Shown here one piece after another: positions 2,975 through 38,810 of a DNA stretch of 45,625 nucleotides (its first letter is position 1; each line of letters opens with the position of its first letter). Below the pieces are notes generated by a model. It was given only the letters and a program-made list of their open reading frames with translations, was not told the origin of the DNA and ran no database searches. Source of the stretch: Bacteroidota bacterium (GTDB taxonomy: Bacteria; Bacteroidota; Bacteroidia; 2-12-FULL-35-15); assembly GCA_023251835.1 (NCBI GenBank), contig JAHEXZ010000043.1, forward strand, positions 1-45,625, written 5' to 3'. Both the position numbers and the translations under genes were made by a program.

Positions 2975-2986
2975 TAGCCCAATATA

Positions 2987-3031
2987 AAAACAGAAAGGCC
3001 ATTCCCGGAAGGGAGTGGCCTTTCTGTTTTT
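2987..3031 (+). terminator. Strong Rho-independent terminator
   Basis: A 20-bp near-perfect inverted repeat (left arm 2987-3006, right arm 3011-3030) encloses a GGAA loop. Its core is AGAAAGGCCA/TGGCCTTTCT and it ends in a run of T. It lies 12 bp after the substrate-binding protein stop codon. Confidence 0.88.
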
Positions 3032-5722: not shown

Positions 5723-5794
5723 TATACTGAGCGAATGAGTTTGCCGGTTGCTGAGCATAGCCGAAGCACGCAAACTTCATTCAGCCGAAGTATA
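5723..5794 (-). repeat. Family 1 palindromic repeat, copy A (72 bp)
   Basis: An imperfect palindrome with ends TATACTGAGCGAATGAG and TCAGCCGAAGTATA. Read on the minus strand it matches copy B (12886) arm for arm, but it carries an internal insert of about 18 bp holding a second small CTTCGGCT...GCTCAG pair, as if nested or partly duplicated. It sits in the 198-bp gap between divergent pepA and mqnC, 22 bp upstream of the pepA start. Confidence 0.8.
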
Positions 5795-11900: not shown

Positions 11901-12736
11901 TCCCCAAAATCCCATTGCCAGGCAGTAATTGAACTTCCGGATGCCGGAGTTGAGATGTCCGAAAATGTTATTGGTTGTCCCGGACAGGCAGCTCCGCTGC
12001 CACCTGTAATGCCCGGAGCTGTGAAATTAGGAACAGGAGAAGGTTTAACAGTAATAGTAAAGGTAGAATTTCCACAGCTATTGGAAAGTGTTATGTTTGC
12101 AACCTGAGTAGTGGGACTAACAGTGGGAAGAAAAGCAGGAATATCTCCGCTTCCACTTGCCGCCAAACCAATAGATGTGTTGTCGTTCGTCCATGTACTT
12201 CCTTGTGGAAAGGTGAAAGTTCCCACCATTTCACCGGTTCCGCTGCATGTTGCTACATTTGAGAAGGTTGGTGGTGGCTCGATAATTATAACACCTGTTG
12301 ATGCAGGATACATGCCGCATCCATCTTCCGTAAAAGCAGAGTTCCCTGATATAATTGTTATTGTGATAGGTACACCCACAGGCATACCAACAAAATCATA
12401 AGCTACCCAGTCGTTATAAGTGTTAGCATAACTCGGGCAAGAACCAAATATAGTTAGAGTGGAAGAGCATCCCGGAAGGCTACCAAATGGAACACCCAAA
12501 ACACCGCTGTTGGGAGAACCTGTATAAGTTGTTGTTACACCATTGACAGTAACATCCAGTGTCATTGTAGTAGAATTGATGTCTTCATTCGAATGCCAGT
12601 GTTCAACCCATATTCGTAAATCCCCATTACAGTTGGCACAATAGGATACCTGAACAGAATGCCCAAGAACAGTATATCTCAGGCATAATGCAAAGAAAAA
12701 AAGGCTTAATCTGATATTAAAATACCGCCAGGTCAT
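8933..12736 (-). CDS. Giant PKD-repeat surface protein, T9SS type B (array gene 4)
   Basis: A predicted secreted adhesin-like protein of 1267 residues and the last of four consecutive paralogues. After an export signal (MTWRYFNIRLSLFFFA...) comes a head of about 160 residues that I do not recognise, opening SVQVSYCANCNGDLRIWVEHWHS and containing several cysteines. After a linker domain there are eleven PKD-type domains, each marked by a W-x-W-x-FGDG-like turn and a later QNPxH element. The last roughly 88 residues (FYIPSGFSPNNDG, KIYDRWGN, then RGTITVVR) are the gliding-motility-associated T9SS type B C-terminal domain. ATG 12736 is preferred because the frame extends upstream only to a TTG at 12793. 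The final PKD block aligns in order with that of its upstream neighbour, which indicates duplication. Family biology suggests surface attachment or binding of polymers; the ligand is unknown. Confidence 0.88.
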   Translation of the reverse strand: MTWRYFNIRLSLFFFALCLRYTVLGHSVQVSYCANCNGDLRIWVEHWHSNEDINSTTMTLDVTVNGVTTTYTGSPNSGVLGVPFGSLPGCSSTLTIFGSCPSYANTYNDWVAYDFVGMPVGVPITITIISGNSAFTEDGCGMYPASTGVIIIEPPPTFSNVATCSGTGEMVGTFTFPQGSTWTNDNTSIGLAASGSGDIPAFLPTVSPTTQVANITLSNSCGNSTFTITVKPSPVPNFTAPGITGGSGAACPGQPITFSDISTPASGSSITAWQWDFGDGSPPETTQNPTHIFPLGSSTYVVTLTSTDANGCVPDTSLAINLSGPTAAFAAADVCDNASAVFTDASTPTGTITSWKWDFNNDGTIDNTTQNPNFIFPGPGTYQTELLMEDSGGCKDSIIHTIIIEPNPVAAFTTTGNCPGQTITFNDTSTTISGNITSWLWNFGDGNPANTSTNPSHTYSSAGTYMVKLTITTDNGCTDSITKTTVVHPLPSANYSAANVCDNNSVIFNDSSSIQNTDTIVSWKWDFGDGSLFNLNQNSSYLYAVSGSYLAELLVVSNFGCADSITKTIIIFPQPVSEFTSTSVCNGSQTQFTDASTTSSGSINAWSWDFGNGGPLNTSSSPSYIYTSAGNKTVTLIVTNNFGCTDTVVKSAIVYYNPVAGFTHSNVCYSDTMYFTNTSTIDNSTAIANYIWSFGDFGPTSNLQNPSHYYTPGNYIVTLVTTSTDGCSSAATVPVSAFDAPSSAFMFNNTCLSDSALFTNSSSPPTMGSISNWLWNFGDGTSLNTNTWSPNHQYIAPGNYIVTLVTYSSNLGCPNTIKDTITIFPTPIANFGFIEACENQVMGFIDSSTVSGGNTIIGWAWNFDDGSPLSALQNPNHTFVSDGAFPVTLIVTTNNNCTDTVTQNALTHPKPTVQFSASNVCLGSLTPFADLSIISSNPSNDVIQSRVWNFGDGSPVYNNQNTAHQYSDTGTYIVKLVVVSNFGCPDSLTKTSTVSPNPIVRFSSIDTLGCEPLCTFFQDSSSIASGSITSYSWDFGDGSTTDTIQNPIHCYNNNLSGLTDYFDATLTATSDSGCVSILSKSNYITVYPLPEPDFTIEPETTTIINPIVSIKDSTSGAILWSWNFGDGTTAFDSAFVSDSLKHTYADTGTYTITLIATSQYGCSDTVYQTASVSRDFAFYIPSGFSPNNDGKNEVFRPIGIFVGKFEMKIYDRWGNFVFYSDDFNKGWDGTVNNGIGITQQDIYVYVIKATDIKKKKHYYRGTITVVR

Positions 12737-12821
12737 GAACCATAATGTGTTTTTCGAACCCTTAAATTTAATTCGTTTTGCTGGTTTTATCAATATTTTA
12801 GGGTATAGTTTATATAGTAGT

Positions 12822-12858
12822 TCTCAAAAAATTAGGGTTTAAGACCCTTTTGAGACAA
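12822..12858 (-). terminator. Nested hairpin, possible terminator
   Basis: In the 209-bp gap between two PKD genes, AGGGT and ACCCT form a short stem, while TCTCAAA and TTTGAGA form an outer stem. Read on the minus strand the inner stem is followed by AATTTTTT. It could end part of the transcription of the upstream gene at 12946-16665, or act as a processing site. Confidence 0.4.
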
Positions 12859-12885
12859 CTTCTTTGCATCCAATGCAGGTGGTAT

Positions 12886-12939
12886 TATACTTCGGCTGAA
12901 TGAGTTTGAAAAAACCGGCAAACTCATTCGCTCAGTATA
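12886..12939 (+). repeat. Family 1 palindromic repeat, copy B (54 bp)
   Basis: The simplest copy. TATACTTCGGCTGAATGAG and CTCATTCGCTCAGTATA arms pair, with GAATGAGTTTG/CAAACTCATTC perfectly matched and a loop of about 9 nt. It begins 6 bp beyond the stop codon of the minus-strand gene ending at 12946. Confidence 0.85.
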
Positions 12940-12945
12940 AATGTA

Positions 12946-15900
12946 TTATCTGACAACCGTGATTGTTCCTCTGTAATAATGTTTTCTTTTTTTAATATCT
13001 GTAGCCTTTATAACGTAAACGTAGGTCTCTTGCTGACTAATAGCTGTTCTATTGTTTACTTTGCCATCCCAGCCTTTATTAAAATCATTGGAATAAAAAA
13101 TGAGGTTTCCCCACCGGTCATAAATCCTCATTTCAAATTTCCCAACAAAAATTCCTATAGGGCTGAAAATATCGTTATTGCCATCATTGTTTGGCGAAAA
13201 TCCATTTGGAATATAAAATAAAAAATCCTGTTCAACAACAGGGTTTTTGTATGTTGTGTCTGAACATCCATATAGTGAAGTAGCAATAAGTGTAATGGTA
13301 TAACTTCCTGTATCAGCATACGTATGTTCCAATGAATCAGAAACAAAAGAAGTATCGGATGAGGTTGACCCATCTCCAAAATCCCAGTTCCACACAACAG
13401 CTCCGGACGAGGCATCTGTAATTGAAATAACGGGATTTACAATAGTTGTGGTTTCCGGCTGAAGAGTGAAATTGGCTACGGGGGATGGGTACACAGTAAC
13501 ATAACTATTCTTAGACAGGCTATTTACGCAGCCGCTATCGGAAGTAACCGTTAACGTTACATTATGGTAAGCGATTGAACTACCCGGATTATTATAGCAA
13601 TGAGCAGAATTTTGTGTACTATCTGTTGGACTGCCATCTCCCCAATCCCACTGGAAAGAGTTTACAGCACCAGCACTAATATATGACGAATCCTGAAAAT
13701 TAATACATAAAGGGCCACAGCCCAAAGTGCTGGAAGAAGTAAAATCAGCTGCCGGATTAGGGCTTACTGTAGCTGTTTTAGTTGTTGAATCAGCGCAACC
13801 AAAATTTGAAACAACAATAAAATTAATGGAATAGGTTCCTGTATCGCTGTATTGGTGTGCTGTATTCTGGTTATTATAAACAGGGCTACCATCACCAAAA
13901 TTCCATGTTCTGGATTGTATTACATCGTTAGGAGGGTTGGAGGGGATTGATGAAAGGTCGGAAAAGGGTGTTAGACTACCTAAACAGACATTGGTGGTTG
14001 AAAATTGCGCTGTAGGCTTAGGGTGTACAATTACATTTTTTATAATGGTATCAAAACAGTTATTATTTGTAGTTACAATAAGCATAACAGGAAACGAACC
14101 TGAAACAATAAACTGGTGGTTTGGATTCTGACCCATATCTATTGGGCTTCCATCCTCATAATTCCATGACCAGCTTGTAAGACCGTTTCCGGATAAAATC
14201 GATGAATCTGTAAAATTCATTACCTGGTTTACACATACTTCTGTATATCCGAAGTTAGGAATAGCCGAAGGAAGCATAGTAATTGTATCTTTTAGTGTAT
14301 CGGCACAGCTCAGGTTGGATGAATACGTAATTAGAGTAACGATGTAATCTCCGGATGCCGTATATTGGTGACTTGGACTCCAAGCAGTTGTATTAACAGG
14401 TGTTCCATCGCCAAAATCCCATGACCAGTTTGCTATAGTTCCATCACTTGGAGGGGTGGAATTATTGGTGAACTGTGCAGGCGTTGATAAACAGTTGCTG
14501 CTGGATGTAAACGCGCTCGTTGGAGCATCAAAAGCATTTACAGGAACAATAGCAGCACCAGAACATCCATCGATGGTTGTTGCCACCAGCGTAACAGTGT
14601 AGTTGCCTGTGGTTGTATAGTAATGTGAAGGGTTTACTAAACTGCTTGTGGGGCTTGCATCACCAAACGACCATAAGTAATTGGCAATAGAGGTGGAGCC
14701 ATTGACAGAAGAAGTATTGGTAAAATACATTGTGTCGCCTAAGCAAATATTATTAAATGTAAAACCTGTCACAGGGTTATAATATAGTGAAACAGTTTTT
14801 GTAGCTGTATCTGAGCAACCCAAGCTGTTGTTTACCTGAAAAGTAACAGTATAGACTCCTACATTGGTGAACAAGTGAGAAGGATTGGGATTGGTATCTA
14901 TGGGACTTCCATCTCCGAAGTTCCATGAATAGGTGCTGATAGTTCCGCTGCTTGTGCTTGAGCTGTCTGAGAAGACGATTGCACTTCCCTGACATCCTGA
15001 TTCACCGCCAAATAAAGCAACAGGTTTAGGGTTTACCGTTACCTGTGCAATGGCTGTTCCATTACATGTTCCTGAAACACCTGTTACTGTATATGATGTT
15101 GATGTTAATGGTGAAGCACTTGCCGTATTTGTTCCTGTGGGTGTTGCGCCTGCAGACCAGCTATAGGTGGCTCCACCAGTTGCTGTTAATAGTGCAATTT
15201 CGCCTGTACAGATAGTTGGAGAATTAACGGTAATTGTTAATGCTGTTGAAACAGTTACTATTGCAATAGCACTATCAGAACAGCTTCCGCTGGTTGCTGT
15301 AACAGTGTATGAGGTGTTAGACGAAGGAGATACAACGATGGAGTCAGTTGTTTCGCTAGTAGACCATGAATAGGTTGTTCCACCGCTTGCAGTGAGTGTA
15401 ACAGTTTGTCCGCTGCAAATGGTTGGTGAATTCACACTAATAAGAAGAGATTGAGTAGTATCAGTGATAACGGTTATTGTATCAGTATTGGTGCAACCAT
15501 TTGCCGCATCAGTAGCCGTTACTGTATATGTGCCTGTGGCTGTTACTGTAGATGGATTGGGAGAATTTATTAAAGCCCCTCCATTCCAAACCATTGTATT
15601 GCCGGTACTGCTGCCGGTAAGTGTTACGGAGGTTACAGAACACGTTAAATTGCCACTGCTGCCTGCTGTAACTGTTGGTGGAGTGGTATTGGAAACAACT
15701 GTTACAGAGTCGCTGTTAACGCAACCATTTGCATCTGTTGCGGTTACTGTGTATGTTCCTGTTGTATTAATAGTAGCCGGATTGCTGGCATTAAACAACG
15801 AGCCTCCGTTCCAAACCATTGTACCACTGCTGGTAGCAGATAAGGCAACAGTGCTGTTAACGCAGGTAAAGCTATCGGTTGGCGCAATTGTGACTGTTGG

Positions 15901-16665
15901 TGGAGGTGCGGCTGTTGCATGTGTAACTGTGGTTATATTGTTCCAAAGTAGTGAAACATCAGAGGCTGTTGACACATTAGGACTAACTGAAATGTACTTA
16001 ACACACCCAGGTTGTGTTTCACATTGTACAACATTATCGTCTCTGAAAAAATTAATTGGAGTGGCGCTTGTTGATGGGCAGTATAAATTTCCGGTATCGT
16101 TATAGGTGCCAAAAAGTGTACCATCTACATAAACAGAAATTATACCGGTGCCACCATCTCTCACAAATGTTATCAAATAATAAATATTCGTATTAAAATA
16201 GGGACATGTTCCAACATTTCCGTTAGGATATAGGTTAAGACAGTTTCCTGAAAAATAAATTCCGGCATCAGCTGTACCATTAGAAAAATCAATGATACGG
16301 GCAAACCCACCTAAAGAACTAAACCGGAAAAACACATTTATGGTATAGCTTGTTGTGATTAAGCCGGGATTGGGATATTGTAGTCCACCCCCGTCATTAA
16401 AGCAATACGAGTTAGAAGTAAGACAAGCCCCTGATGTTGTGCCTGAAGTTTGAGTGCTATATGAACCCGTTGTTGCTCCACATGCTAATAATTCGGTTAA
16501 TGCCGGACCGCTGCCAAATTCGTTAAAATTATTGTTGAATATATATTCGTGGGTTTGCGAAGATAAAGTAAATGAGAATATTGCAAGTATGGGGATTATT
16601 AAGCAGCACCCCAACCGTTTGGTTTTGCCAATAATATTAGATGAAAAAAGAATAGGCTGTTTCAT
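12946..16665 (-). CDS. Giant PKD-repeat protein with LamG-like head, T9SS type B (array gene 3)
   Basis: A secreted surface protein of 1239 residues. A signal peptide spans about residues 1-36. Residues about 40-250 form a LamG/concanavalin-like head (EYIFNNNFNE, FFRFSSLGGFARIIDF, ISVYVDGTLFG), a fold that commonly binds glycans. Next come about four Ig-like modules of TCVNSTVALSA...GTYTVTATDANGC type, the first two nearly duplicates of each other. Seven PKD domains follow, and then a C-terminal type B domain (FYIPNGFSPNNDG, RIYDRWGN, TITVVR) almost the same as that of array gene 4. One PKD segment, FGDGSPVYNNQNTAHQYSD, is identical in genes 3 and 4. The Thr/Val-rich repeats create long antisense frames that are not genes. 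It lies 73 bp downstream of array gene 2 and is probably co-transcribed with it. Confidence 0.9.
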   Translation of the reverse strand: MKQPILFSSNIIGKTKRLGCCLIIPILAIFSFTLSSQTHEYIFNNNFNEFGSGPALTELLACGATTGSYSTQTSGTTSGACLTSNSYCFNDGGGLQYPNPGLITTSYTINVFFRFSSLGGFARIIDFSNGTADAGIYFSGNCLNLYPNGNVGTCPYFNTNIYYLITFVRDGGTGIISVYVDGTLFGTYNDTGNLYCPSTSATPINFFRDDNVVQCETQPGCVKYISVSPNVSTASDVSLLWNNITTVTHATAAPPPTVTIAPTDSFTCVNSTVALSATSSGTMVWNGGSLFNASNPATINTTGTYTVTATDANGCVNSDSVTVVSNTTPPTVTAGSSGNLTCSVTSVTLTGSSTGNTMVWNGGALINSPNPSTVTATGTYTVTATDAANGCTNTDTITVITDTTQSLLISVNSPTICSGQTVTLTASGGTTYSWSTSETTDSIVVSPSSNTSYTVTATSGSCSDSAIAIVTVSTALTITVNSPTICTGEIALLTATGGATYSWSAGATPTGTNTASASPLTSTSYTVTGVSGTCNGTAIAQVTVNPKPVALFGGESGCQGSAIVFSDSSSTSSGTISTYSWNFGDGSPIDTNPNPSHLFTNVGVYTVTFQVNNSLGCSDTATKTVSLYYNPVTGFTFNNICLGDTMYFTNTSSVNGSTSIANYLWSFGDASPTSSLVNPSHYYTTTGNYTVTLVATTIDGCSGAAIVPVNAFDAPTSAFTSSSNCLSTPAQFTNNSTPPSDGTIANWSWDFGDGTPVNTTAWSPSHQYTASGDYIVTLITYSSNLSCADTLKDTITMLPSAIPNFGYTEVCVNQVMNFTDSSILSGNGLTSWSWNYEDGSPIDMGQNPNHQFIVSGSFPVMLIVTTNNNCFDTIIKNVIVHPKPTAQFSTTNVCLGSLTPFSDLSSIPSNPPNDVIQSRTWNFGDGSPVYNNQNTAHQYSDTGTYSINFIVVSNFGCADSTTKTATVSPNPAADFTSSSTLGCGPLCINFQDSSYISAGAVNSFQWDWGDGSPTDSTQNSAHCYNNPGSSIAYHNVTLTVTSDSGCVNSLSKNSYVTVYPSPVANFTLQPETTTIVNPVISITDASSGAVVWNWDFGDGSTSSDTSFVSDSLEHTYADTGSYTITLIATSLYGCSDTTYKNPVVEQDFLFYIPNGFSPNNDGNNDIFSPIGIFVGKFEMRIYDRWGNLIFYSNDFNKGWDGKVNNRTAISQQETYVYVIKATDIKKRKHYYRGTITVVR

Positions 16666-16738
16666 ATTAAATCTGTCCGCTAAATTATAATAAAAAAACA
16701 GGTGTTATTACAATTTATACCCTAATAGATGCATAAAA

Positions 16739-19700
16739 CTACCTTATAGTTGTAACAGGTCCCCGGTAAATGTGTTTTTTTGACTGAAAATCAATAATTT
16801 TTATGGAATATATATATACATCAGACTGTGCAGGTTGGTTTCCATTGTTTGCTTTACCATACCAGGGTTTATCTATACTGTTGGTTTTATATATTAAATT
16901 GCCCCATCTGTCAAATATATTCATTTCAAAATCAGTAATAAACATTCCCTTGGCAATAAATGTGTCATTTATGCCATCATCGTTCGGGGTAAATGCATTA
17001 GGGATATATACCAGGAATTCTGGTTCCACTATAATAGTCTGATAAGCCGTATCTAAACAGTTGTATTGAGTAGAAGCAATAAGCGTAATTATATAACTTC
17101 CAGTGTCTGCATATATATGAGGTGCCGGATTATAAATAGAGTCGGTTTGTAAATCTCCGAAGTTCCAGTTCCACGCATTTGCTCCGATGGTTGAATTGAT
17201 AATGTTAATGAGCGGATATGTAGAGGTAGCAGTTTGAGGTGAAACGGTAAATTGTGCTATAGGCCCGGGAAAAACGGCAATGTAATTATTTTTTGTTAGT
17301 ATAGAAACACATCCGCTGTCGGAAGCAACTGTAAGGGTAGGGGAGAAGAAGCGGGGTATAAGAATAGTATCATTATAATAACAGTGTAAAACGTCCTGTG
17401 AGCTGCTGTTTTGGGTATTATCTCCAAAATCCCATAGCCAGTTTGCAACAGCTCCTCCGGGAACAAAAGATGCATTTTGTAATGAAAGACATAATGGTTC
17501 ACAACCAGCAGTATCGGTGGCAGTGAATGATCCGATTGGGTTAGGGTTAATCACAATAGTTTTAGAAATAGAATCCATGCAGCCAAAAACAGTTGTTACC
17601 ATTAATTCAACATCATAGGAACCAGTAGCCGTATATGTATGAGAGGTGTTTTTATTTGTATCCAAAGGGCTTCCATCATTAAAGTTCCAGCTCCAGGACT
17701 CCAGGGTATCCGTTAAAGGCACTGTTGAAATGTCGGAGAATGGTGTTGATGTTCCTAAACAAACATTTAAAAAATTAAATATTACATCAGGAAGTGGATG
17801 CACTACAACATTATTGGAAACAGTATCTTTACAATCATGATTTGTATTTACAATCAAAGTGACCGGATAAAAGCCATAGGCGGAATATTGGTGATAGATA
17901 TTTTGAGAACTATCCGGCAAACTGTTATCACCATAGTTCCATAACCAACCTGAAATAATATCGCCATTTATGGTTGAAGAATCCGTAAAGTTCATTGATT
18001 GGCCTAAACAAATATCGCTGTGGTTAAACAGAGCTACGGGTTTATTATAAACTAAAACAGGTTTTATTATGGTGTCGGCACAGCCCCAGCTATTATTTAC
18101 AGTCAACGAAGCATTATAATTTCCTGCATTAATATAAAAATGTAATGGATTTTGAATAGTATCTGTTGATAAATCACCAAATATCCATTGCCAGGAGGCC
18201 AGGTTTCCTGATGCGGTTGAAGAACTGTCAGTAAATACTGTATTATAGCCATTACAAACAAAGGCAGCACTATAATTTGCAACAGGATTTGGGTAAACAA
18301 TAGCTGTTTTGGTGAGAGAATCAATACAGCCGAATTTTGAAGTTACTGACAATTCAACATTATAAGTGCTTTCATTGGCATAAAGATGAGTACTGTTTTG
18401 ATTATTGTTCTGTGGGCTTCCATCTCCAAAATCCCAAAGATAGGATTGAATTGTATCGGTTATCATTATTGTTGAAGAGTCATTAAATAAAGTAACCGTG
18501 CCGTCACAAACATTGGTTGTGCTGAACTGTACCAAAGGTAATGGATGAACAATTACATTTTTTATAATGGTATCAAAACAACCATTATTAGAGATAGGGA
18601 CTAAAGAAACAGAATACGTTCCAGGATTGGAGTAAATATGACCGGGGTTTTGCACAGAACTTACCGGAGAGCCATCTCCAAAATCCCATAACCTGCTAAC
18701 AATGGTTCCGGCAGAAATAACTGAAGCATCGGTAAAACCCATCGACTGATGTAAACATACAGGGATAGAATAAAAATCAGCAACAGGTAAACAATGAACA
18801 ATAACCGGCTTTGTAATAGAATCTTTACATCCATTATTACTTGTTACAACTAAATTGCTGTTATATGTCCCACAGCTTGGGTAGATATGACTTGGGTTTT
18901 GAATCACAGAGGTATCGGTATCTCCAAACTCCCAGCGCCAGTTTGAGATATTTCCCTGTGTAGAGTCGTTAAAAATGGTAGACTGGTTTTTACAAACAGC
19001 GCTTGCACTATAATTTGCTGCCGGTAAGCAATAAACGGTAGTTGATTTAGTAATGCTATCCCTACACCCATTATCTGAGATAACTATCAGTTTTACATTA
19101 AAAGTATCACATACAGAATACTTATGTGTAGTATTTTGCAATGAATCACTGTTGTTATCATCAAAATTCCAGTTCCATTTATTTATAATCCCCCCTTTTG
19201 GTGTTGTTGATATATCATTAAACAGCATTGTATCTCCTAAACAAACAGCCGCTGCACTGAAATCTGCTAAAGGTTTTCCGAGAACATGTAATTCGGTATA
19301 AGAAGAATCTTTTGAATCACAACTTGTTGCTCCCGGTTTAACAGTTACTAAAGAAACTGTATAAGTTCCTGTATCAGCGTAAGTGTGTGTATCGTTTTGA
19401 AGAGAGGATGTTGTGCCATCTCCAAAATACCATTTCCATGAAACGGGAGTATATAGTGCGCTTCCTGTAAAAGTTACCGAATCGCCATGACATACATAAA
19501 TCTCGCTAAGTGTCATTTTTTGTTGAAGATTTTTAACATTTGCACCAGCCAGATATCCGTATGCTTCCGGGCTTCCAAAGCCATAAGCAATGGCATTGAA
19601 TCCACTATCGGCAACAAGTGTATGAACTCCCACTGTAACGGTGTTTTGGGAAAAGGAATAAGCGGGGTTAGATGGAACAGGATTAAACGTAACAGTAGCT

Positions 19701-20830
19701 CCATCCAGAAGAAAAGTGCCTATATCGGCACTTTTCATTACAATATTGATATACTCTCCTGTAATCGACTGATGAGAAGTTGAATAAAGCAAAACGTTAT
19801 TAACGGTTTGTTCGATTGGATTTAATATAATCATAAATGGATCTCCGGTAACACCATCACAGGAACTGCTTTGTGCATATTGAGCGACAGCAATGGGTTT
19901 GTCTGCTGTGAAATAGCTTGCTGTGGTTAGTATGGTATCAAAGTATTGTGCCTGATTTAAAACAATAGAAGAACCATTAATTGTAATGGTTGTTGCATTA
20001 GAGTCGGCCATTACACGGAAAATATCACCACCAAAACGGCTTTTTAAAGGCGAAGTAATAAAATTTTTACCCCATGTGTTGGTGGGGTACATCTGTTCAA
20101 ACAAATTATCTCCTGAACCGCCACCACCGCACCCGGGTGAATCCCAAGTGCTTCCGGAAAACACAGCTATTTTTTTACAATCACTACTGCCTGTGCTTAT
20201 TGCGGTAATTTTGCTGCCAGTCAGATCTGTTGTTGATTTCACCTGATATACATCTCCTTGTTGTAAAGTCACAGTAAAAGGAGTGTTGGCCGGATTTCCT
20301 CCCAAGGTTGGTGCTGTGGGTATTATTTCTACTTCCGTGCTATCTTCAACTGCCACTATAAGAAACTCAGAATATTCACCTCCGTATTGTGTCATACACA
20401 TTGCATAATATTCTTTACCCAAAACTTTTTTAGGAAAAATTAATGAAGCGTCTGCTCTGGCAGGTGCATATATTTGGGCATGAACGGCAATATCATTGTC
20501 GGCTACAATATGTATTCCCCTTTGCTCAAGACAATCCGAGCAACCAACATAACCTGTTGAAGAAGGTACTGTTACGGTAACCATGGAATTGCCCACAGCT
20601 GAAAAAGATGCAGACCAACCCTGAAGAGGAACAGAAACTGTTCCTGTGGTATTAACGGATGCAGAAATATATAATATAAAGGTGGAGCCATATCCATCAA
20701 TATGCCCCATGTGCCCTACCCAAAAATCAGTTCCTCGATTAGAAAAATCCTGTGAAGAAATTCTGGGGGAGCAAAGGAGAACTATTAGACAAAGGAAGTA
20801 ACCTGAAAATGTTTTTCTTATTGACCTCAT
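16739..20830 (-). CDS. Giant PKD-repeat protein with IgGFc-binding-like head, T9SS type B (array gene 2)
   Basis: A secreted protein of 1363 residues. A signal peptide covers about residues 1-26, followed by SNRGTDFWVGHMGH. Residues about 30-430 match the IgGFc-binding N-terminal domain type, with landmarks GIHIVADNDIAVHAQIYAP, GKEYYAMCM, and FRVMADSNATTITING. In vertebrates that domain type occurs in Fc-gamma-binding mucin-like proteins; in bacteria its ligand is not established. Ten PKD domains follow, several degenerate in the FGDG turn (FDDN, YGDN, FGDL). The C-terminus is a T9SS type B domain (VYIPNAFTPNDDG, NIFDRWGNLIY) that closely matches array gene 1 and is less like genes 3 and 4. 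It starts 24 bp after array gene 1, so the two are almost certainly in one operon. Confidence 0.92.
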   Translation of the reverse strand: MRSIRKTFSGYFLCLIVLLCSPRISSQDFSNRGTDFWVGHMGHIDGYGSTFILYISASVNTTGTVSVPLQGWSASFSAVGNSMVTVTVPSSTGYVGCSDCLEQRGIHIVADNDIAVHAQIYAPARADASLIFPKKVLGKEYYAMCMTQYGGEYSEFLIVAVEDSTEVEIIPTAPTLGGNPANTPFTVTLQQGDVYQVKSTTDLTGSKITAISTGSSDCKKIAVFSGSTWDSPGCGGGGSGDNLFEQMYPTNTWGKNFITSPLKSRFGGDIFRVMADSNATTITINGSSIVLNQAQYFDTILTTASYFTADKPIAVAQYAQSSSCDGVTGDPFMIILNPIEQTVNNVLLYSTSHQSITGEYINIVMKSADIGTFLLDGATVTFNPVPSNPAYSFSQNTVTVGVHTLVADSGFNAIAYGFGSPEAYGYLAGANVKNLQQKMTLSEIYVCHGDSVTFTGSALYTPVSWKWYFGDGTTSSLQNDTHTYADTGTYTVSLVTVKPGATSCDSKDSSYTELHVLGKPLADFSAAAVCLGDTMLFNDISTTPKGGIINKWNWNFDDNNSDSLQNTTHKYSVCDTFNVKLIVISDNGCRDSITKSTTVYCLPAANYSASAVCKNQSTIFNDSTQGNISNWRWEFGDTDTSVIQNPSHIYPSCGTYNSNLVVTSNNGCKDSITKPVIVHCLPVADFYSIPVCLHQSMGFTDASVISAGTIVSRLWDFGDGSPVSSVQNPGHIYSNPGTYSVSLVPISNNGCFDTIIKNVIVHPLPLVQFSTTNVCDGTVTLFNDSSTIMITDTIQSYLWDFGDGSPQNNNQNSTHLYANESTYNVELSVTSKFGCIDSLTKTAIVYPNPVANYSAAFVCNGYNTVFTDSSSTASGNLASWQWIFGDLSTDTIQNPLHFYINAGNYNASLTVNNSWGCADTIIKPVLVYNKPVALFNHSDICLGQSMNFTDSSTINGDIISGWLWNYGDNSLPDSSQNIYHQYSAYGFYPVTLIVNTNHDCKDTVSNNVVVHPLPDVIFNFLNVCLGTSTPFSDISTVPLTDTLESWSWNFNDGSPLDTNKNTSHTYTATGSYDVELMVTTVFGCMDSISKTIVINPNPIGSFTATDTAGCEPLCLSLQNASFVPGGAVANWLWDFGDNTQNSSSQDVLHCYYNDTILIPRFFSPTLTVASDSGCVSILTKNNYIAVFPGPIAQFTVSPQTATSTYPLINIINSTIGANAWNWNFGDLQTDSIYNPAPHIYADTGSYIITLIASTQYNCLDTAYQTIIVEPEFLVYIPNAFTPNDDGINDTFIAKGMFITDFEMNIFDRWGNLIYKTNSIDKPWYGKANNGNQPAQSDVYIYSIKIIDFQSKKHIYRGPVTTIR

Positions 20831-20854
20831 GGCATGCTCTTTTGGTCTAATAAT

Positions 20855-23800
20855 TTACCTCACCAATGTCACAATTCCTTTGTAATTATATTTTTTCAAT
20901 TTAAAATCAATAATTTTAATTGAGTAGATATAAACATCGGGTTGTGCAAGTTCATTCCCATAATTAGCTTTACCATTCCATGGTTTATTCATATCATCTG
21001 TTCTGTAGATAAGGTTTCCCCAGCGATCGAAAATAGACATTTCAAAAGCGTTGATAAAAATACCTCGGCCAATAAATGTATCATTTACACCATCGTCATT
21101 AGGTGAAAAAGCTGTAGGAATAAAGAAAGTAAAATCCGGTTCAATAATAACGGTTTGAAAAGCTGTATCAATGCAGTTGTATTGTGTAGTGGTAATTAAG
21201 CTGATGGTATAAGCGCCAGTATCAGAATAGGTATGTGGTATTGGAACGGAGGCACTATCAATACCAGTGGTGAGCGGAGCCGAACCATCTCCGAAATTCC
21301 AGAACCAGGAATTGGCACCTGTAGAAAGGTCAGTAATAGCAACCACCGGATTAATAATGGAAGCAGAAGTTGGTATTACACTAAAACCGGCATCGGGCTT
21401 AGGAAATACAGTAATATGATTTGTTTTAGTGAGTGAAGTAACACAACCGCTATCAGAAGTAACGGTTAATGAAATAGTATAGAACTTAGGATTAAATACA
21501 GAATCATTAAAAAAACAATGATTAATAAGCGTATTGTTAGCAGCAGTATTGCCATCTCCAAAATTCCAAATCCAACTGTTGTTGTTTCCTGTTGCAATAG
21601 TAGAAGAGTTGGAAAAATCAATACACAGCGGCTCACAACCAATGGTATCGCTGGTAGTAAAGCTGACCAAAGGATTGGGATTAATAACAATAGTTTTAGT
21701 AGTGGGATCAGCACAGCCAAAGCTGGAAAGCACATTTAACTGAACAGAATCAGTTCCGATAGCAGCATATAAATGAGCTGTATTTTGAGTATTAGAAACA
21801 GGTGAATTATCGCCAAAATCCCAGTTCCATATAACAACGCTGTCATAAGTGGGATTAGTTAGTACAGTAGATAAATCAGTAAACACAGCCGTATCGCCAA
21901 AGCAAACGTTGTAAGTAGAAAAAAGAGCATCGGGCAAAGGATGAACAACAACGGTATTGGTAGCTGTATCCTTACAATTGTGATTAGTTTGAGCAAAAAA
22001 AGTAACCGTATAAGCTCCGAAATCATCGTAAGTATGAACAGGGTTTTGTAGAGTATCCAAAGAAGAATTATCGTCAAAATTCCAGATCCACGCACTCATG
22101 AAAGAAGTACCAGTAACGGAAGAAGAATCAAAAAAGCTCATGTTTTGTCCCAGGCACACCTCAGCAGCAGTGAAATCAGCAACAGGCATAGGGAAAACAG
22201 TAAGGGTATCCATAGCTGTATCAGCACAAGCTAAGTTAGAAGAACGCGTGATAAGAGTAATGGTATAAGTACCCGTATCAGCATACAGATGCAGTGGATT
22301 TAAATCTGTAGTATTCAAAGGCGTTACATCTCCAAAATTCCATGTCCATGAGGCAATGGTACCCATAGAGGGATTATTAGAAGTATTGTTAAATAAAGCA
22401 GAATCAACCAGACAACAATTAGCAACATTAAAATCCGCTACAGGCGGGTCAAACACATTCACATTCCTGTTAACAGCATTCACACAATTTTGGTTAGTAG
22501 TAACTAACAATGTTACTCCATAATTAGCAGGGAGATTAAAAAAATGAGCAGGATTTTGTACCCCACCAGTAGGGCTGCCATCGCCAAAGACCCATAACCA
22601 GGAAGCAATAACAGCCGAAGTATCAACATAGGAAGAATCGTTAAAAAACACAGAATCATTTAAACAAACATCCAGAACCGTAAAATTAGCAATGGGGTTG
22701 AAGTAGACAACTATGGGTTTAGTGACTGTATCGGCACAGGTAAAGTTATTCTGAATAATGAGTGTAGTAGAAAAATTACCAGCATTTGGGTAGAGATGAG
22801 AAGGATTTTGAGTAGCATCTGCAGGCGAACCATCCCCAAAATTCCAGTTCCAGGAACTAATGGTGCTGCCGGAAGCAGTAGTGGAGCTGTCTGAAAAAGG
22901 AACCGCAGTGCCATCACATTTGTTTATATCTGTAAAATCAGCCACAGGCTTGGGATATATGATAATAGGATGTGTAACAGAATCAGCACATCCGAATGTA
23001 GAGGAAACAAGAAGTTGCACATTATAAGTTGCAGCGGCCGTATAGAGATGACCACCTGTAACCTGCTGCTGAAAGAGTAAAGGAGTGCTGTCTCCGAAAT
23101 TCCATGTCCATGATTGAATAGTATCAGTATTAGTGATGGATGAACTTTCGTTAAACGAAGCATAATACCCATAACACACGTTAGCGGTGGAGAATTGAGG
23201 TACCGGCAGTGGATGTACTACTATATTTTTAGAGATGGTGTCTTTACATCCGTTATTGGTAGTAACAATTAAGGTAACGGTGTACGTGTCGGGACTTGAA
23301 TATAAATGGCTTGGATTCTGATTAGTATTTGCGGGGCTTCCATCTCCGAAATCCCAGGAATAAGCGGATAGCGTTGCTCCCGAATTAGGCACCGATGTAT
23401 TTGTAAAAGGCATACTGTCTCCAATGCAAACATCGAGGTTGCTGAAGCCGGCAGTTGGAAGGCCATATACATGAACCGGATTGGCAGCAGTATCAAGACA
23501 ACCATAACTACTTTGTATAACCAGAGTAACATTGTAACTGCCCGAATCAGGGTAAATGTGTGTTGGATTGGAAGCGATGGTTACAGGGCTTCCATCTCCA
23601 AAATCCCAACCGGATAACACAATAGTTCCTGGTGTGGTGGATGTGTTGGTAAATTGGGTAGCATTATTTTTACAAACGGTTGTATTTGTAAACGAAGCCA
23701 CAGGAGGGGCAATAACATGGATGTATATGGTATTTGTATCAGTAGTGTTGCCACATTTTGCGATAAGCTGTATCTGTTGTAATCCGACAGTGTTAAATAC

Positions 23801-25306
23801 AAAAGGAAGCGTGTCTTTATCGGCAGTAATAAGGGTGTTGTTTATATACCAGTCTTCAAAACATCTTTTTCCAACGGAGGTAGTATTATAGAACCATACG
23901 GTATCATTAACACAAACATTGGTATCGCTGGGAACAAATGTGGGCACGGTAGTGCAATGCTGACACAGATAAATATCTGTAGGGGAAAAGATGTTTGTGG
24001 TAATAGAAGGAGTGGCAATTGTTGCGGTCGGTATAGTTTCACTGCCTCCTGAGCCAACTGTTGGTGTTATGTTCTGAACAATAGTAGCAGCATTTGTCTC
24101 ATTACAGCCAGCCTCTCCGAGGCTGTCGGTTTTCATAAACAGCGGATCATAATAGTTGGCTCCGAAACTTGCGGTTACAATAGACAGAGCATAACCACCA
24201 TCAGGAGCTTCTCTGGCCATAGCTCCTTTATCATAAGCTGGGCCACCATAAGCCTTAGACCATTCAAGATTACCTAAGCTATCGGTCTTAATCAAATAGG
24301 CATCCAGGTCACCTGCTCCAAAACTTGTAGTATAGCCAAACACAGAAAAACCATGATCTCTTGTTTCTAAAGCAAAACGAGGTTGTTCATCTGCTGCCCC
24401 TCCATAGGTTTTTGCCCACACTACAGCACCACTATTATCTGTTTTTATAAGTAATACATCATTGCTTCCGGAACCAAAGCTGGTTGTATTTGCGCAAACC
24501 ATAAAGCCACCGTCTGCCGTAGTTTTTCCGGAAATTCCCCATTGGCTGCTTCCTTCGCCACTTGCACCACCATATGTTTTAGCCCACTGTATACTTCCTG
24601 ATGAGTCTAATTTTAAAACATATATATCATAGCTTCCTGCCCCAAAACTTGTAGTGTAGCCAACAACTTTGTAACCACCATCACTTGTCTGTTCAACATA
24701 ATCGCCCCAGTCAGATCCGGCTCCTCCGTACACTTTCATCCATTGTGTATTACCGTTTGCGTCTGTTTTTATTAGTGCAACATCTTCGGCACCAAAGCCT
24801 AATCCGCTCATAAAACCAGAGATAACATAGCCACTATCGCTTGTTTGCTGGACATAAAGACCATAATCAGCAGCTCCGCCACCATAAACTTTTGACCATT
24901 GCAGATTACCTGATGCATCAAGTTTTAACAGGGTTATGTCATAATCACCTGCTCCAAGAAAAGCAAGACCGGTAACAATATACCCCCCGTCAGTTGTTTG
25001 CTGAATAGCTTTTCCTCCATCTTCCCCTGTGCCTCCATAAGTTTTAAACCATTCAGGATTACCACAGCCATCTACCTTATAAACATATATATCACAACTT
25101 CCGGCACCCGAAGATCCATGTTGCCCTGTGCCAACAAAACCACCATCATTTGTTTCTGCTAAAGACAGCCCCCCATTCATTCCGGCAGCCTGGAAAGTGC
25201 GCATAAAAGTATTGGTAGTTTGTGAGAAACAGGAAAATGAGATTCTGAAAGCCCAAACAAAGGTGAGAAAAGAGAAGGTAAAAATGTATCTGGTAGTCGT
25301 ACTCAT
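20855..25306 (-). CDS. Giant PKD-repeat protein with likely seven-bladed propeller head, T9SS type B (array gene 1)
   Basis: The largest of the array, at 1483 residues, and the first in transcription order. After a signal peptide (ending near SCFSQ) there are seven repeats of about 50 residues, with consensus TxDGGYxVxG-x-SFGAG-x2-D-x2-L-x-K-x-D-x2-G-x3-W-x-K-x-YGG. The seventh repeat lacks the closing W-x-K-x-YGG strand, and the mature N-terminus (FMRTFQAAG) looks able to supply it, as in a closed seven-bladed beta-propeller. An Ig-like domain follows (about 450-540), then ten PKD domains, and a T9SS type B C-terminal domain (FFIPTAFSPNDDG, SIFDRWGNLIY). The propeller fold is inferred from repeat number and phase; the ligand is unknown. 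A 161-bp AT-rich gap upstream probably holds the promoter, but no convincing consensus box was found. Confidence 0.92.
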   Translation of the reverse strand: MSTTTRYIFTFSFLTFVWAFRISFSCFSQTTNTFMRTFQAAGMNGGLSLAETNDGGFVGTGQHGSSGAGSCDIYVYKVDGCGNPEWFKTYGGTGEDGGKAIQQTTDGGYIVTGLAFLGAGDYDITLLKLDASGNLQWSKVYGGGAADYGLYVQQTSDSGYVISGFMSGLGFGAEDVALIKTDANGNTQWMKVYGGAGSDWGDYVEQTSDGGYKVVGYTTSFGAGSYDIYVLKLDSSGSIQWAKTYGGASGEGSSQWGISGKTTADGGFMVCANTTSFGSGSNDVLLIKTDNSGAVVWAKTYGGAADEQPRFALETRDHGFSVFGYTTSFGAGDLDAYLIKTDSLGNLEWSKAYGGPAYDKGAMAREAPDGGYALSIVTASFGANYYDPLFMKTDSLGEAGCNETNAATIVQNITPTVGSGGSETIPTATIATPSITTNIFSPTDIYLCQHCTTVPTFVPSDTNVCVNDTVWFYNTTSVGKRCFEDWYINNTLITADKDTLPFVFNTVGLQQIQLIAKCGNTTDTNTIYIHVIAPPVASFTNTTVCKNNATQFTNTSTTPGTIVLSGWDFGDGSPVTIASNPTHIYPDSGSYNVTLVIQSSYGCLDTAANPVHVYGLPTAGFSNLDVCIGDSMPFTNTSVPNSGATLSAYSWDFGDGSPANTNQNPSHLYSSPDTYTVTLIVTTNNGCKDTISKNIVVHPLPVPQFSTANVCYGYYASFNESSSITNTDTIQSWTWNFGDSTPLLFQQQVTGGHLYTAAATYNVQLLVSSTFGCADSVTHPIIIYPKPVADFTDINKCDGTAVPFSDSSTTASGSTISSWNWNFGDGSPADATQNPSHLYPNAGNFSTTLIIQNNFTCADTVTKPIVVYFNPIANFTVLDVCLNDSVFFNDSSYVDTSAVIASWLWVFGDGSPTGGVQNPAHFFNLPANYGVTLLVTTNQNCVNAVNRNVNVFDPPVADFNVANCCLVDSALFNNTSNNPSMGTIASWTWNFGDVTPLNTTDLNPLHLYADTGTYTITLITRSSNLACADTAMDTLTVFPMPVADFTAAEVCLGQNMSFFDSSSVTGTSFMSAWIWNFDDNSSLDTLQNPVHTYDDFGAYTVTFFAQTNHNCKDTATNTVVVHPLPDALFSTYNVCFGDTAVFTDLSTVLTNPTYDSVVIWNWDFGDNSPVSNTQNTAHLYAAIGTDSVQLNVLSSFGCADPTTKTIVINPNPLVSFTTSDTIGCEPLCIDFSNSSTIATGNNNSWIWNFGDGNTAANNTLINHCFFNDSVFNPKFYTISLTVTSDSGCVTSLTKTNHITVFPKPDAGFSVIPTSASIINPVVAITDLSTGANSWFWNFGDGSAPLTTGIDSASVPIPHTYSDTGAYTISLITTTQYNCIDTAFQTVIIEPDFTFFIPTAFSPNDDGVNDTFIGRGIFINAFEMSIFDRWGNLIYRTDDMNKPWNGKANYGNELAQPDVYIYSIKIIDFKLKKYNYKGIVTLVR

Positions 25307-25467: not shown

Positions 25468-26040
25468 TTATTTGTTTTTTTTATACAGCGGAACAGTAGA
25501 ACAGGGTTCGCCATACATAATGCTTTTTACGACAGGACTCAGGAGGCGGGTTATTTCAACATAGGCTGCTGTTGGAACCGGGAGTCGGTTACATCCTTTT
25601 ATGACAACACGAGCATTTTTATAATCATTTATATTTAGCTTTTTAATCAGGTCGTGGTATAGTATGGTTTCAAGCGTTTCCATGTTTCCGAATACTATTT
25701 CTTTTGCATAAGGTTGCAGATGGATTGTAAGAAGCATGTATGCCCAGGTTGGAACAATGGCATCTGTGGTGCAGGTGATTGCAACAAATTTGTTGGCGTA
25801 TTTGTTCCAATCTTCATTTTTTACATATTCGCGGAAGTCTTTTTCACGCAAAACAAGTCCCTGGAAAAGCTGATTTTTAATATCTAATAAAATGCGTTCT
25901 TCCTTAGGGTAAAGTTCTTCCAGGTTTATTGTGATTATACCGCTTTGAGCGACCTTATTTATAGGCCCCACAATATCTCCCCCTCCCTCCTTTGTCGGGA
26001 TAAACTCTGGGGAGGGGGTGGGAGTATTATTTTTTATCAT
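25468..26040 (-). CDS. DUF2480 family protein
   Basis: A Bacteroidota-specific family of unknown function often found beside Fe-S assembly genes, as here. Recognisable conserved blocks are INKVAQSGIITINLEELYP, the LREKDFREYVKNEDW stretch and AITCTTDAIVPTWAYMLL. The start is uncertain. The annotated ATG 26040 gives 190 residues, but the first 23 codons (MIKNNTPTPSPEF...) are a translation of a G/C-skewed hairpin repeat at 25977-26024. A GTG at 25971, just inside the conserved region (GPINKV), would give 167 residues and leave the repeat in the untranslated leader, the same layout as at sufE. I favour that start by analogy but keep the longer frame because GTG starts are less common. It lies 30 bp after sufT. 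Confidence 0.82.
   Translation of the reverse strand: MIKNNTPTPSPEFIPTKEGGGDIVGPINKVAQSGIITINLEELYPKEERILLDIKNQLFQGLVLREKDFREYVKNEDWNKYANKFVAITCTTDAIVPTWAYMLLTIHLQPYAKEIVFGNMETLETILYHDLIKKLNINDYKNARVVIKGCNRLPVPTAAYVEITRLLSPVVKSIMYGEPCSTVPLYKKNK
25977..26024. repeat. Family 2 G/C-skewed hairpin, upstream copy
   Basis: A C-rich arm (CTCCCCCTCCCTCC, 25977-25990) and a G-rich arm (GGGGAGGGGGTGGGAG, about 26009-26024) form an imperfect stem around a loop holding TTTGTCGGGATAAACTC. It overlaps the first codons of the DUF2480 frame, or lies 5 bp upstream of its alternative GTG start. Confidence 0.7.
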
Positions 26041-26070
26041 TTCTTATCTCTTAAAAAATTGAAAAAGGGT

Positions 26071-26400
26071 TTACATAAAACCAAGTTCTAACTGAGCTAC
26101 TTCGCTCATCATTTCTTTTTCCCAGGGTGGCTCAAAAGTGATTTCGACTTTGGCTGATTTTATTCCTTCTACTTCTCGGAGTTTTTGCTCTACTTCAGGT
26201 GGAAGTATTTCTGCAACGGGGCAGGATGGAGAGGTTAAAGTCATTTTTACTGCCAGGTTATTTTCTTCATCAATAGTGATTTCATAAATTAAGCCTAATT
26301 CCCAGATATCGATAGGGATTTCCGGGTCGTAACAGGTTTTTATTGTATCAATCACTCTTTGTGCAAGAGCAGTATCGTGTGTGTTGATTATTGCAGGCAT
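26071..26400 (-). CDS. sufT: SUF Fe-S assembly protein SufT (MIP18/DUF59 family)
   Basis: A small cytosolic MIP18-family (DUF59) protein of 109 residues that in other bacteria helps mature Fe-S proteins under high demand. It shows the family core YDPEIPIDIWELGLIY near residue 28 and LTSPSCPVAEILPPEVEQKL with the conserved cysteine of the TxPxCP motif; EITFEPPWEKEMMSE closes the domain. It stands between sufE and the DUF2480 gene on the same strand, within the Fe-S block. Repeat copy C separates it from sufE. Confidence 0.92.
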   Translation of the reverse strand: MPAIINTHDTALAQRVIDTIKTCYDPEIPIDIWELGLIYEITIDEENNLAVKMTLTSPSCPVAEILPPEVEQKLREVEGIKSAKVEITFEPPWEKEMMSEVAQLELGFM

Positions 26401-26426
26401 TTTTTAAAGTGATAAAGTTTTAAAGT

Positions 26427-26481
26427 TATACTTCGGCTGAATGAGTTTACAAAAAAACATCAAACCCATTCGCTCAGTATA
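26427..26481 (+). repeat. Family 1 palindromic repeat, copy C (55 bp)
   Basis: TATACTTCGGCTGAATGAG and CCATTCGCTCAGTATA arms with a 10-nt A-rich loop. It has the same orientation as copy B and differs from it at a few positions. It fills most of the 118-bp gap between sufE and sufT, 26 bp beyond the sufT start. Confidence 0.85.
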
Positions 26482-26518
26482 AAAGTCAAAAATTTAAATT
26501 AACAACATTTCTTTTGAC

Positions 26519-26941
26519 TCACTCCCTTTTGACTTTGTAAGCGAGCGCATCCATTTTCATTTGTTTTATCATACTTACCAATCCATTACTTCTGGTTGGA
26601 GACAAATGTTGTTTCAGGCCTATTTTATCTATAAAATCAAGTTTTGCATTTATAATTTCGTCAGGTGTATGGTTGGAAAGCACACGAACCATAAGAGCAA
26701 CCATACCTTTTGTAATAATGGCATCACTATCAGCAGTATAGATTACTTTGCCATCTTTTAGCTCTGAGTGTAGCCAAACCTGTGCCTGGCAACCTTTTAT
26801 GAGTTTGTCATCGGTTTTGTATTTTGTGTCAATAATTGGCAGTGACTTTCCCAATTCAATCAGATGCTCATATTTCTGCATCCAATCGTCAAATAATTCA
26901 AATTCATCAATTATCTCCTGTTCTGTTTCTTCTATTGTCAT
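26519..26941 (-). CDS. sufE: SufE-family sulfur acceptor
   Basis: Accepts persulfide sulfur from SufS and passes it to the Fe-S scaffold, in the cytoplasm. The 140-residue protein has normal SufE length. The acceptor cysteine is Cys51 in the LIKGCQAQVW motif. The usual N-terminal acidic helices and the C-terminal LSPTRSNGLVSMI segment are present. ATG 26941 is chosen over a GTG two codons upstream that lies in a G/C-skewed hairpin. The gene follows sufS with a 55-bp gap that is mostly hairpin. Confidence 0.95.
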   Translation of the reverse strand: MTIEETEQEIIDEFELFDDWMQKYEHLIELGKSLPIIDTKYKTDDKLIKGCQAQVWLHSELKDGKVIYTADSDAIITKGMVALMVRVLSNHTPDEIINAKLDFIDKIGLKQHLSPTRSNGLVSMIKQMKMDALAYKVKRE

Positions 26942-26944
26942 AGC

Positions 26945-26980
26945 CACCCTCCCGTACCCCCTTCCCCACTGGCGAGGGTG
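26945..26980. repeat. Family 2 G/C-skewed hairpin, sufE leader copy
   Basis: CACCCTC at 26945-26951 pairs with GAGGGTG at 26974-26980, with a C-rich interior CGTACCCCCTTCCCC. It lies 3 bp upstream of the sufE start codon in the gap after sufS, so on the minus strand the leader is G-rich just before the ATG. Confidence 0.7.
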
Positions 26981-26996
26981 TTATAAATTTTTATTT

Positions 26997-28244
26997 TTAT
27001 TTTAGCATTATTATAGCTTTTTCAAGCCCCTTAATAAATACATTTATTTCTTCGAAGGTATTATAAAATGCAAATGATACCCGCACTGTGCCAGGAACAC
27101 GGTAGTAAGCAACTAATGGCTGAGTACAGTGGTGACCGGTACGTACAGCGATACCCATCTGGTCAAGTATAGTTCCTATGTCAAAAGGATGTATACCTTC
27201 AACTATGAAAGAAAGAACTCCGGCTTTTTCTTTAGCCGTACCCAGAATTTTTACACCCTGTAGTTTTTGCAGTTTTTCAGTTGCATATACCAACAGCTCA
27301 TGTTCGTATGTTGTAATAGCATCTAATCCAATTTCATTAATATAATCAATAGCGGTAGCAAGTCCTAATGTTCCGGCAATATCAGGTGTTCCTGCTTCGA
27401 ATTTCAAAGGTATATCTGCGTATTCTGTTTTTTCAAAGCTCACAGTTTTAATTGTTCCTCCGCCTACCTGGTAAGGTGGTATTTGATTGAGCCATTTTTC
27501 TTTTCCATAAAGTACTCCAATACCTGTTGGCCCAAAAACTTTATGGCCGCTAAAGCAGTAAAAGTCACAATCGAGTTCCTGAACATCAACTTTTAGATGA
27601 GGGACAGCCTGTGCACCATCTACCAGCACAGGAATATTTCTGGCATGCGCTGCTGAAATGATTTCTTTTATTGGATTTATTGTTCCCAGCGTATTTGAAA
27701 CATGGGCAATAGCAATAATTTTTGTTTTTTCATTAAGTAATTTATTATACTCATCCAATACCAGTTCTCCTGCATCATTGATGGGAATTACTTTTAAAAC
27801 AGCCTCCTTTTCTTCGCACACCTGTTGCCAGGGCAGAATGTTGGAATGATGTTCCATGACAGAAACAATAATTTCATCGCCTTTAGAAATGAATCTTTTG
27901 CTGAACGAAGAAGCGACCAGGTTGATAGCATCAGTAGTTCCCTTTGTGAAAATAATTTCACAGGGATTTGCTGCATTCAAATGCTTTTGGATAGCTGCAC
28001 GTGCATTTTCATAGCCAATGGTAATATCCCGGCTTAGCGTATGCACACCGCGGTGTATGTTGGCATTTTCATAGCTGTAATAATGGTCAATCCTGTCAAT
28101 TACCTGCTGTGGTTTTTGTGCAGTAGCCCCATTATCAAAATAAATCAGGGGTTTGCCATTAACTTTGCGTGAAAGTATAGGAAAATCGGCACGGATTTTT
28201 TCGATATTGATAGTGGTTTTATCTATGGCTTTTAAAGCGGTCAT
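26997..28244 (-). CDS. sufS: Cysteine desulfurase SufS (class II)
   Basis: A PLP-dependent enzyme that takes sulfur from cysteine for Fe-S cluster assembly, working with SufE. The 415-residue protein shows the class II features: YFDNGATAQKP near the N-terminus, MEHHSNILPW, the PLP lysine in SGHKVFGPTG (Lys235) and the catalytic cysteine in RTGHHCTQP (Cys373) on a short loop. ATG 28244 is chosen; a GTG four codons upstream is also in frame. In many Bacteroidota sufS follows sufB, sufC and sufD, but here those genes are not in the window and sufS begins a transcript that faces a second desulfurase gene. Confidence 0.96.
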   Translation of the reverse strand: MTALKAIDKTTINIEKIRADFPILSRKVNGKPLIYFDNGATAQKPQQVIDRIDHYYSYENANIHRGVHTLSRDITIGYENARAAIQKHLNAANPCEIIFTKGTTDAINLVASSFSKRFISKGDEIIVSVMEHHSNILPWQQVCEEKEAVLKVIPINDAGELVLDEYNKLLNEKTKIIAIAHVSNTLGTINPIKEIISAAHARNIPVLVDGAQAVPHLKVDVQELDCDFYCFSGHKVFGPTGIGVLYGKEKWLNQIPPYQVGGGTIKTVSFEKTEYADIPLKFEAGTPDIAGTLGLATAIDYINEIGLDAITTYEHELLVYATEKLQKLQGVKILGTAKEKAGVLSFIVEGIHPFDIGTILDQMGIAVRTGHHCTQPLVAYYRVPGTVRVSFAFYNTFEEINVFIKGLEKAIIMLK

Positions 28245-28280
28245 TTTGAATATCACAAAGTTAAGAATAATTCTAAATAA

Positions 28281-29575: not shown

Positions 29576-29620
29576 TTTTTTTTCATCGAACTCATAATCC
29601 CTTGTAAAAATAACAGCATA

Positions 29621-38793: not shown

Positions 38794-38810
38794 AAGTTTA
38801 TTAACTTTTT
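38792..38810. terminator. Weak AT-rich hairpin at the PspC gene end and tRNA 3' side
   Basis: AAAAGTT (38792-38798) and AACTTTT (38803-38809) form a 7-bp stem with a TATT loop, overlapping the PspC-domain gene's stop codon. It may end transcription from both this gene and the convergent tRNA gene. Confidence 0.4.

Follow-up and report, generated by a model that had tools for sequence, protein, structure and literature searches.

REP, REPIN and BIME elements are described in PMC3733652 and PMC8266576 as palindromes of 20-40 nt that bear a one-sided tag, reach high copy numbers and form inverted pairs. They are abundant at gene ends, and copies near stops as well as in frame, including at NH2 ends, have been reported (PMC3733652, PMC8266576). 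In E. coli, REPs within 15 nt of stop codons can act on translation, according to PMC12306157. The usual suspect for REP mobilisation is a REP-type Y1 transposase (PMC6006769, PMC8266576). In Bacteroidetes, such transposases carry in-frame repeats in their own genes: hairpin repeats of TnpA-REP subclass 2.4 have in-frame copies inside the transposase gene, and those of subclass 2.6 show atypical structures, as presented in PMC6006769.

Here, we analysed a window of 45,625 nucleotides from a Bacteroidota genome, in which two G/C-skewed hairpins, H1 and H2, lie within a block of Fe-S genes. It is highly probable that both are diverged copies of a dispersed REP-like palindrome, H1 in the leader of sufE and H2 in the coding sequence of a DUF2480 gene. 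As in REP, the element is a short imperfect palindrome dispersed in many copies and, as in REPIN and BIME, inverted pairs occur. Unlike the GTAG/CGTC superfamilies of REP, its consensus, TCCCTCCCCTnnGGGGAGGGCTGGGGAGGGGTn, has neither GTAG nor CGTC at the stem foot and carries a G-rich tail instead. Moreover, in contrast to REP, REPIN and BIME, the present copies abut both starts and stops in a fixed orientation.

Two hairpins in a block of Fe-S genes

The features of the region are as follows.

25468-26040, minus strand: DUF2480 gene; PF10652 at residues 27-188; ATG at 26040
25963-26034, minus strand: 72 nt (24 codons) holding H2, after ATG ATA and ahead of the conserved core of DUF2480, most likely translated; 28 congener loci lack the stretch
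25977-26024, minus strand: H2, probable REP-like element, long-loop variant; its core, 25987-26007 (GAGTTTATCCCGACAAAGGAG), is found exactly elsewhere
26071-26400, minus strand: Fe-S assembly protein of the PF01883 family (Pfam match)
26519-26944, minus strand: sufE; PF02657, E 1.1e-47; ATG at 26944
26945-26980, minus strand: H1, probable diverged copy of the REP-like element, from its sequence; 5.4 bits with model R1 (see below); G019, a genome of the same genus, has a copy at the orthologous junction
26997-28256, minus strand: sufS-like cysteine desulfurase (class V aminotransferase family); PF00266; the name sufS is from context

The sequences of both hairpins were confirmed. In a window with a GC content of 38%, a C-run followed by a G-run is their striking feature. 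GC content alone was rejected as a marker of the sites, other 40-mers being equally GC-rich. Compared with dinucleotide shuffles, the folding of H1 and H2 gives z-scores of about -1.4 to -2.7, varying with strand and flank. These modest values indicate that the unusual part of the hairpins is their sequence more than their fold. A scan of the window for a C-run/G-run arrangement returned H2 as the sole match, H1 being under the threshold; any such match arose in 4 of 100 simulations with an order-2 Markov model. A search of the window against Rfam retrieved one tRNA only, and no family matching H1 or H2.

Other repeats and structures were seen in the window. An intergenic 21-bp hairpin at 2986-3031 (95% complementary, with a very low folding energy of z -10.9) is terminator-like. 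On the minus strand, 8933-25306 encodes four very large adjacent proteins with tandem units of ~250 bp, apparently interrelated. A second dispersed repeat, TATACTGAGCGAATGAGTTTG, and its relatives occur at 5723-5749, 12913-12939 and 26461-26481; repeats of this type show a perfect inversion at two places 7 kb apart.

A dispersed family of G-rich palindromes

A loose G-run pattern, for which a reversed pattern is not an independent control, revealed many hairpins of one layout in the genome to which the window belongs (here the own genome; 4.1 Mb in 171 contigs). This layout is CCCTCCCC-NNN-GGGGAGGG, two bases, then GGGGAGGGGT; alternative stems include CCCTCTCC/GGAGAGGG. The common form is TCCCTCCCC-NNN-GGGGAGGG-NN-GGGGAGGGGT, beside which stem variants and a long-loop variant exist. 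The element is thus composed of a C-rich/G-rich stem of 8-9 bp and a G-rich tail. A covariance model, R1, was built from 15 copies, with H1 and H2 left out; 99.2% of the cells of its 8-pair stem are paired.

With E values up to 0.1, R1 matches the own genome at least 103 times, a minimum since 150 of 831 candidates were scored. Of 36 genomes in the genus, 34 have one match or more, with 100 in G019 and 141 in G021; G020 and G024 have no match. The link of the hairpins to the Fe-S block is nothing special, as the family has more than 100 matches elsewhere in the genome. The family is dispersed and probably non-autonomous, and its dispersal together with the element-free sites described below suggests that it is mobile. 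A G-rich family of such palindromes is not described in the literature searched.

H1 and H2 score 5.4 and 8.9 bits with R1, respectively, no better than chance matches in the window. Two other window matches were rejected, one at 38797 that overlaps a tRNA and one at 29598 with a similar score. A near-exact search with H1 recovered only itself in the own genome and nothing in 40 relatives or in the wider genome contig collection; it took the loose G-run pattern to reveal the family.

H1 in the sufS-sufE gap

On the minus strand, H1 reads CACCCTCGCCAGTGGGGAAGGGGGTACGGGAGGGTG, followed by GCT and the sufE ATG. Its G-rich tail therefore ends 3 nt 5' of the ATG, and most of the gap between the end of the sufS-like gene (26997) and the ATG (26944) is occupied by H1. 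In G019, a copy scoring 20.4 bits with R1 lies between the aligned end of sufS and the sufE ATG. Among the congener loci, sufE was located upstream in 18 and not in 10 others, one further locus (L094) being unparsed; 17 of the 18 lack an H1-like element, and G019 alone has it. H1 was probably inserted in an ancestor common to the window genome and G019. Because H1 and the G019 copy differ greatly, two separate insertions at one site may also have taken place. As part of the sufE leader, H1 could have a secondary effect on sufE expression.

H2 lies within the DUF2480 reading frame

On the minus strand, H2 reads CTCCCACCCCCTCCCC-loop-GGAGGGAGGGGGAG. The initial annotation placed both hairpins just before start codons. 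This is correct for H1, but H2 lies inside the open DUF2480 frame, which opens with ATG ATA, 24 codons and then ATA AAT AAG, and the GTG proposed as its start takes part in base pairing at the foot of that hairpin's stem. In 28 parsed congener loci (the start in L094 was unparsed), the distance from the DUF2480 start to the conserved (I/V)NKV-like core is 2 to about 8 codons, without the 24-codon stretch; in several of them ATG ATA directly precedes the core. The closest named DUF2480 record found, from the MAG Bacteroidia bacterium SW_35, is 76% identical.

The 21-nt core of H2 occurs exactly at three places of the own genome, in DUF2480 and on two other contigs, with none for the reversed control. 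The three genes, DUF2480, an epimerase-family gene and RsmE, carry it in one frame within their first ~25 codons and have the peptide PSPEFIPTKEG in common. The epimerase-family copy reads MKNNNNPASPSPEFIPTKEGERVGVRPQ-ILITGAAGFLGSH and the RsmE copy MHLFYTPDIVLTPSPEFIPTKEGGKAVEGP-YTLNEEESKHCIRV; in RsmE, the profile resumes past the added stretch (residue 31 for model position 16). Both of these copies bear similar C-rich and G-rich arms. The core is also found exactly once each in G015, G008, G017, G021, G002 and G022. Several of these congener copies are without the arms, and the core may therefore be a second repeat or move along with one. Most probably, H2 is coding sequence and would be translated as about 20 extra residues. 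A GTG start of DUF2480 is unlikely in view of the paired GTG, the congener starts and the in-frame core in three genes.

The stretch 5' of DUF2480 holds other repeat-like sequences at nine congener loci (L091, L095, L096, L097, L098, L103, L108, L109 and L112), for example TCTCAAATCTCACATCTCA, AGTATTAAGTA and TTTCTCGGCTTCGCTCGAAATGAC, as if the site tolerated many repeat families.

A cis-acting leader, the second proposal of the initial annotation, would lower or regulate sufE translation through the hairpin or through a G-quadruplex of H1, whose four G runs (GGGG-AA-GGGGG-TAC-GGG-A-GGG) were spotted by eye, and H2 would act likewise from the GTG start. The 3-nt spacing to the sufE ATG, the retention of an element near sufE in G019 and the effect on translation that REPs near a stop codon can have in E. 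coli, as given in PMC12306157, are in line with such a role. Nevertheless, the element was found at only 1 of 18 congener sufE junctions and is not conserved as a leader in the genus, the curated Rfam families gave no match, most copies sit at unrelated genes and are equally common at stops and starts, and H2 is most likely coding. We consider translational control within the Fe-S block by such a leader improbable. Insertion of a shared element, the other proposal, is supported by the dispersed family, the element-free congener sites, the copy at sufE in G019 and the exact recurrence of the H2 core.

Copies in frame in other genes

In the own genome, copies lie inside or at the front of genes identified with Pfam and NCBIfam as ThiC (two copies), chorismate synthase, dihydroorotate dehydrogenase, MurD, a UDP-glucose dehydrogenase family protein, an aldehyde dehydrogenase, an amino-acid kinase and two PorP/SprF proteins. 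MutS also has an in-frame copy. In five signal-peptide copies, the tail end adjoins HAQ, FAQ, YAQ or FSQ, which by eye were judged to mark the cleavage site.

A loop of chorismate synthase usually has 13 residues, as seen in the 30 readable genomes of 34 with a match. The element is present in this loop in the own protein (19 residues) and in G048 (17 residues); G050 perhaps has a remnant, and G005 and G014 have other repeats. The own loop is only 6 residues longer than usual, so that the insertion seems also to have cost native residues. This surface loop, with its differing repeats (L049, L151, L164, L157, L171), looks like a recurrent insertion site.

In ThiC (L041/L081), two inverted copies bracket native-looking coding sequence within a single open frame, yet a native-looking stretch between copies is unlike a REPIN linker. 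Two inverted copies also surround native-looking coding sequence in one open frame at L065; the same gene, which resembles MetH, has copies in several congeners.

Rickettsia palindromic elements (RPE) are translated; they are longer than the present element and reside in a different host. The likeness, by description, is that of in-frame palindromes in coding genes, for which RPE are mentioned in PMC3733652.

Placement and orientation at gene edges

When 52 own loci, including L062 (mis-centred, at a contig edge), were compared with random places for the same loci, 17 were start-proximal (4.3 expected), 13 stop-proximal (3.0 expected), 16 mid-gene (41.9 expected) and 6 otherwise intergenic (2.9 expected). 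The initial annotation had asked whether placement is random with respect to starts: a start bias exists, but it is one of two, the placement bias being at both gene ends. Past the tail, the flank shows a weak T-N-T preference, and any target motif there is weak.

Orientation was determined relative to frames called by a simple script (>=90 aa, ATG starts) rather than by an annotation pipeline. L062 is also included in one of the own sets compared for orientation. Among 51 own loci, 28 copies are intergenic; the tail is <=10 nt from a gene boundary in 19 of these (12 stops, 7 starts) and the head end in 2, one copy belonging to both counts. The congener set comprises 85 high-scoring R1 matches of 150 listed (26 retrieved together with the search results, 59 through their coordinates), with L139 shifted by 17 nt. 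Here again 28 copies are intergenic, with the tail at a boundary in 19 and the head in 1, which is in both counts. Counted exclusively, own and congener intergenic copies are 36 tail-first versus 1 head-first. Some loci are orthologous sites (the 136 loci form 110 groups) and many genomes are fragmented; grouping the intergenic copies by tail-side protein leaves 33 tail versus 1 head (p 4e-9).

All in-frame copies near starts, 8 in the own genome and 12 in congeners, are in sense. These 20 copies represent at most 16 different genes, the 4-mer grouping having left L053 (MurD) apart from L129 and L267. Near stops, in-frame congener copies are antisense in 6 of 6 cases, or 5 once L120 is dropped, for which the near-stop call came from a spurious antisense frame. 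Away from gene ends there is no orientation preference: in-frame copies overall are 29 sense and 28 antisense in congeners, and 14 and 9 in the own genome. H1 and H2 both fit the rule that the tail points into the gene. Finally, among the 150 matches listed, all 11 pairs less than 700 bp apart have their tails outward.

The rule is symmetric about the gene and is thus not accounted for by transcription or translation polarity; insertion of an asymmetric kind, or trimming from one end, could produce it. Tentatively, it may be put as a two-sided law that holds irrespective of transcription direction: on both sides of a coding block, the tail touches the block and points inwards, be it ahead of a start, behind a stop, at a signal-peptide cleavage site or perhaps at a domain edge. 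Such a law would need an asymmetric DNA process, for example insertion with a fixed end at the edges of blocks, or deletion on the tail side until essential sequence is reached. REPs in frame and beside stops are already known, and a two-sided orientation rule was not found in the literature searched.

That the elements are transcription terminators or 3' mRNA stabilisers of upstream genes might be argued from the 12 of 28 own intergenic copies with their tail within 10 nt of a stop. However, H1 and H2 both fall outside the set of terminator-like sites and 26 of the 52 own copies are within reading frames, which makes such a function very unlikely. Chance G/C-rich stretches without a common origin, for which the modest folding z-scores and weak R1 scores of H1 and H2 could be invoked, are hardly credible given the exact threefold recurrence of the H2 core and the G019 copy at the H1 site.

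Search for a mobilising enzyme

The own genome has three Y1 matches; a weak one, in a 189-aa frame, is taken to be RAYT-like. With the one pattern searched, no element was detected in the 2-3 kb around the three Y1 genes. Unlike subclasses 2.4 and 2.6 of TnpA-REP, to which the family is similar in its Bacteroidetes hosts and hairpin repeats (PMC6006769, likeness by description), the present in-frame copies are in ordinary genes and none was found beside a Y1 gene. Across genomes, copy number and Y1 matches, whose division into RAYT-like and IS200-like was made by hand, correlate loosely (Spearman 0.49), with exceptions such as G011, which has 59 R1 matches and zero Y1 matches. A Y1 transposase is therefore at most a candidate driver.

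Proposed history and consequences

If H1 and H2 are copies of a dispersed REP-like palindrome, such copies would survive where they do little harm: just after stops, just before starts and in tolerant in-frame stretches such as amino-terminal extensions, the ends of signal peptides and surface loops. H1 would have filled the sufS-sufE gap. H2 would have inserted into DUF2480 behind its second codon and added about 20 residues.

This reading removes the false lead of an Fe-S leader and carries a warning for gene calling: where a G/C-skewed hairpin is met at a start in genomes like these, it may belong to the coding sequence. The in-frame copies would represent core enzymes remodelled by a repeat. 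Should the orientation rule hold in annotated isolate genomes, it would place a sharp, cheaply testable constraint on the poorly understood insertion of REP-like elements and, if the two-sided law is true, the element would go on editing proteins of this lineage in frame, at their termini and in their loops.
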